A stretch of DNA of 64,000 bases from contig NZ_AMSG01000005.1 of NCBI RefSeq assembly GCF_000300875.1, positions 62,001-126,000 of the forward strand, read 5' to 3'. The notes under the pieces were generated by a model. It was not told the DNA's origin. It saw only the letters and a program-made list of their open reading frames with translations, and searched no databases. Shown here piece by piece: positions 22,569 to 33,745 of the stretch; the stretch's first letter is position 1; each line of letters starts with the position of its first letter. Source of the stretch: Galbibacter marinus (lineage in GTDB: Bacteria > Bacteroidota > Bacteroidia > Flavobacteriales > Flavobacteriaceae). The translations under genes and the position numbers were made by a program.

Positions 22569-22733
22569 GTTCTAGTACCCACATCTAATCACAAGTATCA
22601 TTGGGCACATCTCCAATATCTTGATGAAGCAAGTTTTCTATATAAATATTTAAGCTCCAATGAATTGGGTTTAGCCATGATTCAAGTGGTTATTAACGAA
22701 ATATTAAATAGCTTACGTATAGAAAAAATTTAA
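22569..22733 (+). pseudogene. Coding remnant of unknown family
   Basis: The frame has no stop for 54 codons and reads, in part, HWAHLQYLDEASFLYKYL then MIQVVINEILNSLRIEKI before TAA at 22731. This has the amphipathic composition of a real helical protein, but no start codon or ribosome site sits at its head and a TAG immediately precedes it. I read it as the tail of a decayed gene just upstream of the broken antitoxin-like gene. No family was recognised. The rest of the 22296-22779 gap shows nothing else I can support. Confidence 0.3.
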
Positions 22734-22779
22734 AAATTATTTCATTTAATTCGTTTATTTTTATTTAAAAATTAATGTC

Positions 22780-23238
22780 ATGAGAAATTATAACGAAATA
22801 ACTACAAATACTTATTAAGAGATTGCAAAGAACTGTTTGCAAGATTTTCAGGTGGTGTTTCAAAGCATAAAATTTTCTGGGAAAAATGATGTCAAAATAA
22901 AGATTCAAGAAACAGATGAATTCATAACAACAACCAAAAAGGCAATGGCAATACTTTCTACTATAATTGAAAATATGGCTGAAGGCAAATCGATCTCAAT
23001 AGTCTCTTCCAAATCGGAGTTAAGCACACAACAAGTAGCTGAAACACTCAATGTATCAAGGCCTCATGTAGTAAAACTATTAGAGACTACAAAAATTCCA
23101 TTTAGAAAGGTAGGGAGTCATAGAAGGGTGTTGTTAAAAGATGTTATCGAGTATAAGCGACAGCTTGCTAAGGAACGAGATGCACAGCTGGAGTTTTTAT
23201 CCAATCAAGCACAGAAGTTAAACTTGGGATACGAATGA
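22780..23238 (+). pseudogene. Excisionase-type HTH (antitoxin-like) gene broken by an early stop codon
   Basis: From ATG 22780 the frame encodes MRNYNEITTNTY, then TAA at 22816-22818, and continues in the same frame as EIAKNCLQDFQVVFQSIKF and onwards to TGA at 23236-23238. The body carries an excisionase-type HTH ('LSTQQVAETLNVSRPHVVKL') and the 'IPFRKVGSHRRVLLKDVIEY' wing, typical of antitoxins that pair with PIN-domain toxins. The part after the stop (from a TTG at 22837, 133 residues) could still be made by re-initiation. The toxin normally follows at once: an ATG overlaps the stop (ATGA, 23235), but that frame ends after 25 codons at 23312, and the CRISPR array begins two bases later. No PIN domain is present. 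Confidence 0.7.
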
Positions 23239-23313
23239 TAAACTCTGGTCACACAAATAGAGGGGAGGGCAGTTTTGTACCCAGATCCATTGCAAAACAT
23301 CCGGTGTCTTAAT

Positions 23314-24345
23314 ATTGTGAATTGTTTTCAGAATACTATCTTAGTATGGAATTCACAGGACCTTCGCTAGAGTCAGAGAAAAACAGCCGTTGTGAATTGC
23401 TTTCAGAATACTATCTTAGTATGGAATTCACAGGAACAATAAAACAAGACAGAGATGGAAACTAGTTGTGAATTGCTTTCAGAATACTATCTTAGTATGG
23501 AATTCACAGGAATGACCTAATCCACCCACAACTAAGGCTAGTTGTGAATTGCTTTCAGAATACTATCTTAGTATGGAATTCACAGGCAAAAGGGAACACA
23601 TACTCAATCACTATGTGTTGTGAATTGCTTTCAGAATACTATCTTAGTATGGAATTCACAGGACGAAATTTACGACCATGAAATTAACAATTGTTGTGAA
23701 TTGCTTTCAGAATACTATCTTAGTATGGAATTCACAGGTTGGTCGAATTTAGATACCTTGTCATAATGTTGTGAATTGCTTTCAGAATACTATCTTAGTA
23801 TGGAATTCACAGGAAGAGCAGGGACAGGATATGATAGATATGAGTTGTGAATTGCTTTCAGAATACTATCTTAGTATGGAATTCACAGGACCATCAGAAC
23901 CATAAACATAACAACCATTGTTGTGAATTGCTTTCAGAATACTATCTTAGTATGGAATTCACAGGAGATCTATCTCTATAGGTTGAATATTTTGCGTTGT
24001 GAATTGCTTTCAGAATACTATCTTAGTATGGAATTCACAGGGGCATCGTTAACGGCGAGATATTGCCTACCGTTGTGAATTGCTTTCAGAATACTATCTT
24101 AGTATGGAATTCACAGGCTTTGTCAATATGTCAGTATCAGTATATGTGTTGTGAATTGCTTTCAGAATACTATCTTAGTATGGAATTCACAGGATGTCAG
24201 TATATGTCAGTATGTCAGTATGTGTTGTGAATTGCTTTCAGAATACTATCTTAGTATGGAATTCACAGGCAGTATCTTTGTCAATATGTCAGTATATGTG
24301 TTGTGAATTGCTTTCAGAATACTATCTTAGTATGGAATTCACAGG
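23314..24345 (+). CRISPR. Type II-C CRISPR array, 14 repeats and 13 spacers
   Basis: There are fourteen 46-base repeats starting at 23314, 23389, 23465, 23541, 23617, 23693, 23768, 23844, 23920, 23996, 24072, 24148, 24224 and 24300. Spacers are 30 bases, except two of 29 (23360-23388 and 23739-23767). Repeats are identical except the first, which differs at positions 1 (A for G) and 12 (T for C); such decay marks the old end, so new spacers are probably added next to cas2. Repeat ends form an 8-bp inverted repeat (positions 3-10 TGTGAATT with 37-44 AATTCACA). Complementarity to the tracrRNA shows that crRNA is made from the plus strand. Repeat positions 2-4 (TTG) and 24-31 (TATCTTAG) form a promoter-like pair. 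Confidence 0.98.
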
Positions 24346-24516
24346 ATACCAGCCGTAAAAAACTGGCATCCTGTGTTTTAAATCCAAATTCAGGATTTAA
24401 AATCAGAATGAAAAATTATGATTCGGCACAAGGATGTTTGCACATTTTTGATCCTATTTGGTATAAAACAAAATGCACAAAAACAGAAAAATTAGAGTAA
24501 TTCTTCAACGATTATA
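24346..24516 (-). promoter_or_regulatory. Leader-like region between the array and cas2
   Basis: This is 171 AT-rich bases without a credible gene. It carries a perfect palindrome with arms TTTTAAATCC (24376-24385) and GGATTTAAAA (24393-24402) and a 7-base loop, with no T-run on either side, so it does not look like a terminator. Its position beside the intact, presumably newest, repeat suggests a role in spacer integration; this is inference. Confidence 0.45.
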
Positions 24517-24873
<357 letters not shown>

Positions 24874-24904: not shown

Positions 24905-25807
24905 TTAGAAATCAGGATACAGTACCTTTCTACTCGAGCCTGCAAAACACTCTTGAACACTATTCGTTGTACGACTCATGGCGATCATTAAGGGGCTAAG
25001 CTTACCCTCTATTTGCACATCGATGGTCGGTATCTTTAAAAGTTCTGATTTTATATTTTTAGACAATTCTTCAATATTACAGCCCGTATTAACTATATCA
25101 AACACCAAAGAATCAACAAAGGGCCTGTATGGCTCCATGAGGTCGTCAGCCAGACAAAAAGCATTATATTTATTACTATGGAAAATCCCTACTGATGGTA
25201 GTAATCCACTACTTACAAGAGCTCGTGCTGCAATCGCTCTTAATATGGCATATCCATAATTTAATAGATTATTAGGAGGTATCCCTTTTTGATTACGACT
25301 AAAACCCTCAACCACATCATCATCAAACAAGTTTTGAAAATAATATGCTGCGGCAATTGCTTCTATATTTCCAAGATCTCCACTTTTGACTTCTGTTGCC
25401 CATCGTTTAAGTTTTAAGGCATTTTTGGACCGCAACAGCAAATGATTCGCTTGATTGCTGACCTTAGCTGAAATAGTTTGTTGCCATAACTGTTTTTTAA
25501 GCGGCACACTTGCATTAAGTTGATATCGAATCCGCTCGGTCTGCTCGGTGTGCCCCACTAGTGGCTGTAAAAAACTACAAGGCAAATGCTGCTTGTCACA
25601 TGTAATTACGGCGGTCTTATTTTGAACCAATTTCATTAATAGTCCATTGGTAATTGTTATTTGAGGGTCTTCTAATACAACGTATCCTAAATCTTCAATA
25701 GGAAGACTTTTCTCAGCATTTTCATCTCCTGGGAATTTAACGATCAGCTGGTCGTTTTTGGTGCTGAGATAAGCAGGATTACCAAAGAAGAGAGTACGTT
25801 TTACCAT
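24905..25807 (-). CDS. cas1: CRISPR-associated endonuclease/integrase Cas1 (type II)
   Basis: A 300-residue type II Cas1, which inserts new spacers together with Cas2. The N-terminal beta domain starts 'MVKRTLFFGNPAYLS'. The helical catalytic domain keeps the metal ligands: Glu in 'GNIEAIAAAYYF', His in 'VGIFHSNKYNAF' and Asp/Glu in 'LADDLMEPYRPFVD'. The gene begins 19 bases after the cas9 stop. All active-site residues are present, so adaptation should be functional. No csn2 or cas4 is nearby, in line with subtype II-C. Confidence 0.96.
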   Translation of the reverse strand: MVKRTLFFGNPAYLSTKNDQLIVKFPGDENAEKSLPIEDLGYVVLEDPQITITNGLLMKLVQNKTAVITCDKQHLPCSFLQPLVGHTEQTERIRYQLNASVPLKKQLWQQTISAKVSNQANHLLLRSKNALKLKRWATEVKSGDLGNIEAIAAAYYFQNLFDDDVVEGFSRNQKGIPPNNLLNYGYAILRAIAARALVSSGLLPSVGIFHSNKYNAFCLADDLMEPYRPFVDSLVFDIVNTGCNIEELSKNIKSELLKIPTIDVQIEGKLSPLMIAMSRTTNSVQECFAGSSRKVLYPDF

Positions 25808-30094: not shown

Positions 30095-30102
30095 TATCTT
30101 TG
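30095..30102 (+). promoter_or_regulatory. Promoter -7 element of the tracrRNA
   Basis: TATCTTTG matches TAnnTTTG exactly and ends four bases before the anti-repeat. Initiation would therefore be expected right at the start of the anti-repeat. No TTG lies at the -33 position. Confidence 0.6.
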
Positions 30103-30106
30103 AAAT

Positions 30107-30184
30107 CTGAAAGCAATTCACAATAAGGATTATTCCGTTGTGAAAACATTCAAATCGGCATTCTTCGGAATGTCGATTTTTTTT
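30107..30184 (+). ncRNA. tracrRNA of the type II-C system
   Basis: Bases 30107-30123 (CTGAAAGCAATTCACAA) are a perfect 17-base complement of CRISPR repeat positions 2-18. The next bases, AATAAGGATTATTCC, resemble the AAUAAGG core that follows the anti-repeat in Neisseria-type II-C tracrRNAs. A terminal hairpin (30154-30163 with 30168-30177, one G-U pair) is followed by eight T (30177-30184), a standard intrinsic terminator. The RNA would be about 78 bases and is transcribed away from cas9. This also fixes the crRNA strand as plus. Confidence 0.9.
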
Positions 30185-30515
30185 ATCCAAAAACTTTGGC
30201 ATTGATCCCTATCTAATTAAATAGACGACAAACATCACTCATAAACCTGGGATTTATCCAAAAAAGACTGCCTTCAGCAGTATTAGAATTGGCTAAGAAG
30301 GGAGGTATTAAATGAAATCACGGGAACACCCTCTTGATTTTAGAGTGTAATGAATAAGAAATTCAAATGAAAATAGAAATGGACTATTAGATAGACAGGT
30401 TTTAATGCCATTAATTTTAGTACAAAAATTTCGATAATCAATTAATTAATCCCTACGCTATGGATTCATAATCCGCCATCAGAAATCACCTTGTGTGTGA
30501 ACCAAAAAAGGAAGT
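30185..30515. other. Gene-free stretch between tracrRNA and hisS
   Basis: No complete gene is visible in these 331 bases. A short stop-free stretch around 30216-30311 could encode RLPSAVLELAKKGGIK before a TGA and then continues in frame (NHGNTLLILECNE), which looks like a fragment of a decayed small protein. This is weak and no family was recognised. Confidence 0.25.
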
Positions 30516-33715: not shown

Positions 33716-33745
33716 CAAAAGTAGAATTAATTATTATATTTACAA
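33716..33745 (-). promoter_or_regulatory. Promoter of the rpsF operon (complete Bacteroidota consensus)
   Basis: The minus strand has TTG (33743-33745), exactly 19 bases, then TACTTTTG (33716-33723), a full match to TTG-N19-TAnnTTTG. The start ATG lies about 35 bases further. This is the best promoter in the window and the reference for the other calls. Confidence 0.85.

Follow-up and report, generated by a model that had tools for sequence, protein, structure and literature searches.

The window, by which we mean the whole 64,000-nucleotide stretch of Galbibacter marinus DNA analysed here, contains a complete type II-C CRISPR-Cas locus (Table 1), in which cas9, a type II cas1 and cas2 lie side by side and are accompanied by a tracrRNA with anti-repeat and terminator, predicted from sequence only. 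On the operon strand there is no additional ORF of at least 80 aa between the array and hisS, and the PADLOC models of csn2 and cas4 had no match in the two antisense ORFs (inside cas1 and cas9), hisS, the DinB gene or the HTH gene. No Rfam family matched the window at gathering thresholds.

Table 1. Features of the II-C locus, in positions of the window
Feature	Position	Strand	Details
II-C CRISPR array	23314..24345	+ (crRNA strand)	14 repeats of 46 nt; orientation from anti-repeat and relatives
Oldest, crRNA-upstream terminal repeat	23314..23359	+	altered only at positions 1 and 12; box intact
TTG, repeat positions 2-4 (first copy)	23315..23317	+	-33 element of the original prediction
-7 box TATCTTAG of the oldest repeat	23337..23344	+	same box at repeat 24-31 in 14/14; last copy 24323-24330
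Leader, newest repeat to cas2	24346..24516	.	inverted repeat TTTTAAATCC/GGATTTAAAA at 24376-24402
cas2	24517..24864	-	PF09827 69 bits, TIGR01573 76 bits, PADLOC Cas2_II 162 bits
cas1, type II family	24905..25807	-	TIGR03639 299 bits, PADLOC Cas1_II 376 bits
cas9, 1391 aa	25827..30002	-	TIGR01865 494 bits; RuvC_III and HNH_4
Perfect -7 box TATCTTTG of the predicted tracrRNA gene	30095..30102	+	just 5' of the anti-repeat
Predicted tracrRNA	30106..30184	+	anti-repeat 30106-30123, hairpins, terminator hairpin, T-run ending 30184

The repeat copies start at positions from 23314 to 24300 and are separated by 13 spacers of 29-30 nt. On the plus strand the repeat unit reads GTTGTGAATTGCTTTCAGAATACTATCTTAGTATGGAATTCACAGG, and 13 copies are identical, the exception being the copy at 23314. 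The three newest spacers (24118-24299) have low-complexity sequence in common, consisting of GTCAGTAT units, and two of them have CTTTGTCAATATGTCAGTAT. Exact matches of the spacer core CAATATGTCAGTAT in the own genome are confined to the array, and the viral collection contains no exact copy of the 19-mer common to two of the newest spacers; possibly a single source was sampled more than once. The ORF at 22837-23238, which directly precedes the old end of the array, has an excisionase-type helix-turn-helix domain (HTH_17, TIGR01764) and no obvious partner gene.

The anti-repeat is the exact complement of repeat positions 2-19, and the fold of 30106-30190 is predicted to be stable (z -5.35). 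Because TATCTTTG stands directly before the anti-repeat, the tracrRNA would start at about the base pairing with repeat position 19, and since pairing stops there, the crRNA box at 24-31 lies outside the paired region. No TTG was found at N18-21 upstream of the tracrRNA box.

The original prediction was that each repeat is a promoter composed of TTG at positions 2-4, exactly 19 bases and a -7 box at 24-31 that differs from TAnnTTTG at one base, with the same spacing as the rpsF promoter. For the window itself this description is accurate: TTG-N19-TATCTTAG is present in 14/14 repeats, the rpsF site (33716-33745) reads TTG-N19-TACTTTTG, and TATCTTAG fits 5 of the 6 fixed letters in 14/14 copies. 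A TTG-N19-box with at most one mismatch occurs anywhere in 0.65% of mononucleotide shuffles of the repeat, or in 4.1% when N17-23 is permitted, and the 64 kb window has 12 such N19 sites on the plus strand outside the array and 29 on the minus strand. Since these modest chance figures concern a single repeat sequence, the window alone is no more than suggestive. A sigma-70 promoter scan of 22700-24600 stayed at background (10 sites against 8.8 expected).

The mid-repeat box across Bacteroidota

To compare repeats, we collected 180 Bacteroidota Cas9 loci (80 + 100, with some genomes in both sets), of which 141 had an array. These 141 arrays together with three plasmid loci and the window, minus five unsuitable consensuses, gave 123 distinct repeats (144 loci). 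A box was called when at least 5 of the 6 fixed letters of TAnnTTTG matched, and expectations were obtained by shuffling repeat positions from 18 to the end. It turned out that a box starts at 23-26 in 88 of the 123 distinct II-C repeats (7.5 expected) and is perfect there in 28 (0.5 expected), so the repeat box is far beyond chance in this comparison. In the subset whose tails are more than 34% different, 19 of 30 repeats have the box (2.1 expected) and eight have it in perfect form (0.14 expected). When patterns of the form XXnnXXXX in the repeat tails were ranked by their excess over shuffles, with no hint of the motif, TAnnTTTG came first (weighted 10.6 of 34.3 against 0.9).

The same first 17 bases are shared by 56 repeats whose tails are all different, and 53 of these repeats keep the box (3.2 expected); among such repeats the mean pairwise identity at 23-33 is 0.49 for the 27 of 46 nt and 0.63 for the 26 of 47 nt. 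Positions 24-31 are thus not free to vary in relatives that keep the pairing region; free variation there is what the original prediction had named as speaking against it. The conservation beyond the pairing region that it had asked about for the whole arrangement is borne out for the -7 box in most of the II-C repeats compared. The TTG at 2-4 lies inside the tracrRNA-pairing half, and pairing alone is enough to account for the conservation of this TTG.

Counted at 22-27, the box is present in 93 of the 123 repeats, namely in 83 of the 97 repeats of 44-50 nt and in 10 of the 26 repeats of 36 nt. The distance after the box is about 3-6 nt in these ten 36-nt repeats versus about 14-17 nt in the 46-47-nt repeats. 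The 30 repeats without a box at 22-27 include 16 of the 26 repeats of 36 nt; by post hoc fits, which are not counted as support, nine of the 30 have a box at 28-33, 12 (36 nt) end with [TG]AnnTT and nine fit neither. A 36-nt repeat family ending with CGATATT (L145, L151, L153, L160, L163, L168-L171) is among those without a mid-repeat box. It is possible that the first bases of the spacer complete a box in this family (TTTG at 8-11, N19, GAnnTT at 31-36); no bias for T or G was seen in the first spacer bases after 36-nt repeats.

Two sets of other repeats served as controls. For 33 non-type-II repeats from 40 Bacteroidota loci without a Cas9 match, which are shorter than II-C repeats and often GC-rich, a box on either strand was found in 6 versus 8.4 expected, while the II-C set gave 111 of 123 versus 77 expected under the same lax either-strand test. 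Outside the phylum, twelve plasmid type II loci provided six distinct repeats (cas9, cas1 and cas2 are annotated for 4 of the 6). Read in the orientation starting with G, all six end with TAnnnT, and none of them has a box at 23-26; the Ilyobacter repeat matches 5 of 6 letters at 17 and at 22.

The sigma factor with its consensus TAnnTTTG / TTTG is reviewed in the accessible part of PMC7366714, as is the lack of success in finding the -33 motif in F. johnsoniae. In 1086 gene-upstream regions of the same loci we counted TAnnTTTG 313 times, versus 147 in one dinucleotide-preserving shuffle, and a TTG before it peaks at N19 (22) and N20 (16), the other spacings from 14 to 26 giving 3-12 and the shuffle mean being 3.3. 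In a hint-free ranking of gene-upstream patterns TAnnTTTG was seventh, not first (281 versus 112). TAnnTTTA is mildly enriched in these regions (366 versus 289), and TAnnTTAG, the form of the window, barely (110 versus 100). Likewise, the genome of the window has 143 TTG-N19-TAnnTTTG sites versus 103 in the reversed control, and 86 TTG-N19-TAnnTTAG sites, of which 14 are the array and the 72 outside it show no enrichment over the control (67). As the window form is not enriched in its own genome, the promoter of the window is possibly weak, an off-consensus member of a conserved set.

The same box accompanies the predicted tracrRNAs. A perfect TAnnTTTG is present before the anti-repeat in 59 of 111 distinct tracrRNA candidates (2.4 expected), and at least 5 of its 6 letters in 92 of 111 (34 expected). 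Among the 59 perfect boxes, 53 end 0-7 nt before the anti-repeat, mostly 4-5, and these distances suggest a start about 4-6 nt past the box. A published repeat of Prevotella intermedia (PMC5608340, in the accessible part) also has TATCTTTG at 24-31 on the crRNA strand; as far as that part goes, its authors describe the tracrRNA promoters as not strongly predictable.

It could be argued that the middle of the repeat is kept by tracrRNA pairing or by RNA structure and that the match to a promoter is incidental. In 58 of 111 tracrRNA candidates the pairing extends at least to repeat position 23 and so comes close to the box or enters it; box and pairing are cleanly separated in the window and less cleanly in other loci. 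The window repeat is also palindromic around the box (ATACTA TCT TAGTAT). We consider this explanation quite improbable: pairing ends at 19 in the window, the gapped box is retained although the tails after the same first 17 bases differ widely, and pairing predicts neither this motif nor its match to gene promoters.

Another explanation is that the box serves as an anchor or ruler motif for spacer integration by Cas1-Cas2 and is no promoter. Type I systems, with their known anchor motifs inside the repeat, are a precedent, and the newest, integration-side repeat is exactly the consensus in all 146 arrays scored (not made distinct; newest end within the locus). This is unlikely in our view, since the distance from the box to both repeat ends shifts by several bases, the box has the sequence of the gene promoter box of the phylum and of the tracrRNA box, and it is absent at 23-26 in the six type II repeats of other phyla.

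Oldest repeats and the TTG element

The oldest repeat has no 5' spacer and is not the site of integration, so its remaining function would be that of a promoter for the first spacer, and it can be regarded as a natural deletion test. We scored it at 80% identity, with either half sufficient for recognition, since our first test could miss heavily decayed copies. Of the 82 distinct arrays that have a mid-repeat box, 34 combine a decayed guide half (1-17) with a preserved 3' half and 0 show the reverse, while both halves are kept in 44 and both decayed in 4. For the 48 arrays with an altered guide half, the rate of change is about 0.6 at the outer edge and drops to 0.10 directly ahead of the box and to 0.00-0.08 inside it. 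Besides, a 3'-anchored remnant was searched in 85 arrays, and its boundary falls at 5-17 in 30, from 18 to the box in 11, inside the box in 5 and 3' of the box in 2; the remnant starts at position 4 or before in 11 arrays, and no remnant was seen in 26, remnants shorter than about 9 nt being invisible to this test.

The fall-off of the remnants runs in the expected direction, but a neutral reading is possible too, in which recombination between repeats could refresh the inner half, never the outer one, without selection. The whole 3' half is kept in the oldest repeats, as changes 3' of the box amount to 17 in 795 and those in the six box letters to 6 in 324. The same tendency (7 versus 1) is seen in the 31 arrays that have no mid-repeat box; hence the oldest-repeat test does not single out the box. 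For II-C arrays, mutations of the oldest repeat are reported to lie mostly in its first 15 nt, and retention of a promoter has been suggested as the constraint (Feussner 2025, PMC12080349, in the accessible part).

For the TTG the result is different from that for the box. TTG at 2-4 is lost in 44 of the 48 oldest repeats with a changed guide half, and a replacement TTG at N17-22 shows no excess in them (7 versus 6.6 expected). If the decayed oldest copies are promoters, the TTG is not needed; it is probably not required in the repeat and belongs rather to the tracrRNA-pairing half. The promoter reading of the repeat holds up in its -7 box and is doubtful as to the TTG as a needed -33 element. 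Neither is the spacing of exactly 19 general, as boxes at 22-27 correspond to N17-22. TTG-N19 as a fixed unit was dropped, because the box start varies from 22 to 27 and the TTG is lost in oldest repeats.

Strand, leader and direction of transcription

The crRNA strand is opposite to cas9 in 53 of 54 arrays scored (L031-L110), among them each of the 50 that have a mid-repeat box, which means that transcripts would head toward cas2. On the leader side, 51% of 142 arrays have a perfect inverted repeat with arms of at least 8 (3.3% shuffled), compared with 8.5% of 117 arrays on the old side (3.7% shuffled). These leader inverted repeats are often within 20 nt of the newest repeat and have lineage-specific arms, for instance AACCCACTG/CAGTGGGTT and AATCCACTG/CAGTGGATT. 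Such a repeat is present in the leader of 57 of 103 arrays with a mid-repeat box, and the 8 bases that follow the hairpin include 5 or more T in the crRNA direction in 30 of the 57 and in the cas direction in 4 of the 57, kinship being ignored in these counts and many leaders looking related. No T-run follows the leader hairpin of the window (24376-24402). The polarity of the T-runs is that of terminators of transcripts that exit the array, and the leader inverted repeat is probably a terminator facing the cas operon. Transcription toward cas2, as originally predicted, is thus probable from the strand and the leader T-runs.

In Riemerella, new spacers enter between cas2 and the array, according to the accessible part of PMC6008519. 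A different view of the start of transcription comes from the same genus, as a study using the BDGP predictor, in its accessible part, places several promoters in the leader and none in the repeats (PMC5006608), in line with a start outside the array, in its flank or leader, and repeats that are merely processed. The R. anatipestifer repeat recovered here (L043) holds a perfect TATCTTTG. When 22600-24600 was scanned for a box of at least 5 of 6 letters with TTG at N18-21, the plus strand gave the 14 repeats and one spacer site, with no site before the array, and the minus strand gave a single site (TTG at 24508, box TGTTTTTG). The leader T-runs, too, are oriented like terminators of transcripts that come out of the array, and we give a start outside it very little credence.

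Proposed reading and known systems

Drawing on the sequence facts, the conservation, the controls and the terminator asymmetry, we consider it likely that each II-C repeat combines a guide half with a 3' half bearing a Bacteroidota -7 box promoter, from which a pre-crRNA per spacer is read toward cas2. The guide half would be repeat positions 1-17/19, which would pair with the tracrRNA, and the 3' half would offer a -7 box of the TAnnTTTG type to the primary sigma factor, with TATCTTAG at 24-31 in the window. Polymerase, if it uses the box, would start about 4-6 nt past it, near repeat position 35-37, and every spacer would be given a short pre-crRNA of its own that runs toward the leader and cas2. 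The guide half of the next repeat in this transcript would pair with the tracrRNA, started from its own TATCTTTG box upstream of cas9, and the transcript would be processed. New spacers would enter at the 3' (cas2) end and be expressible at once, because they arrive behind a promoter-bearing repeat.

More tentatively, and with considerable doubt, the promoter half may work on the -7 box alone with no -33 element, the oldest repeat may be pruned by selection to a promoter-only half, and the primary crRNA may pair with itself and perhaps be masked until trimmed. A promoter-only oldest half-repeat would still serve the first spacer and could not make a useless guide. If transcription starts within the repeat, every primary crRNA opens with about ten bases of the repeat 3' end, and these bases could form a duplex, of 8 bp in the window, with the tracrRNA-binding half of the same crRNA. 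In the window (23349-23406), a primary crRNA from repeat position 36 would begin with GAATTCACA, complementary to TGTGAATT in the tracrRNA-binding half; the predicted fold of this primary crRNA loops the spacer and is no more stable than shuffles.

If the reading is true, an entire phylum that has a promoter code of its own would be added to the bacteria with leader-free crRNA transcription, and II-C repeats would be seen to adopt the promoter language of the host. It would also explain the immediate expression of spacers added at the 3' end, provide the array orientation for annotation and PAM work, correct the published claim of promoter-free repeats in a relative and tell which bases to mutate.

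A repeat-borne promoter as a device is already known from other bacteria. Repeat-embedded crRNA promoters are reportedly found in the II-C system of Neisseria meningitidis, in work by Zhang in 2013, and the -10 box in the repeats of Campylobacter and Neisseria is of the sigma-70 type. In Campylobacter jejuni II-C, the -10 box of the repeat-embedded crRNA promoters is situated in the repeat's 3' part (Dugar 2013, PMC3656092, in the accessible part). Within the phylum, the proposal for F. columnare II-C was that a TTG located 33 bp ahead of every spacer acts as -33 element, with eight reads on the array (Hoikkala 2021, PMC8092290), and the F. psychrophilum II-C study names TAnnTTTG for the promoter of cas9 and, for the repeats, TTG (2023, PMC10309648); the direction data in the accessible parts of these two papers are bulk RNA-seq or eight reads. 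The originally predicted leader-free promoter of this lineage is less novel than was thought, since a repeat-encoded II-C promoter had been proposed for two Flavobacterium species from the TTG alone. Among papers containing both TAnnTTTG and CRISPR, the accessible parts of those consulted describe no -7 box in a repeat, and no further repeat-embedded promoters were recognised in the Bacteroidetes literature from titles and the starts of abstracts, preprints and most subscription papers being outside this search. Within these searches, three points appear to be new: that the -7 box is found across the phylum, that it is independent of the pairing half, and that the TTG seems dispensable.

The present system resembles those of F. 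columnare and F. psychrophilum, as described in the accessible text, in its phylum, in the proposal of a repeat-encoded promoter and in transcription toward the variable end. It is unlike them in that the accessible text cites the TTG and mentions no -7 box in the repeat, whereas here the -7 box is conserved and the TTG looks dispensable. Compared with the accessible part of Feussner 2025 (PMC12080349), the decay of the oldest repeat is aligned here to the Bacteroidota box and the loss of the TTG is counted. As in Campylobacter and Neisseria II-C, there is a box inside each repeat, transcripts would have a single spacer, and a predicted tracrRNA is present together with cas9-cas1-cas2. In those systems it is a -10 box, placed in the 3' part of the repeat, while here a Bacteroidota -7 box lies in the middle of a 46-47-nt repeat, and the transcript would start within the repeat, before the spacer.
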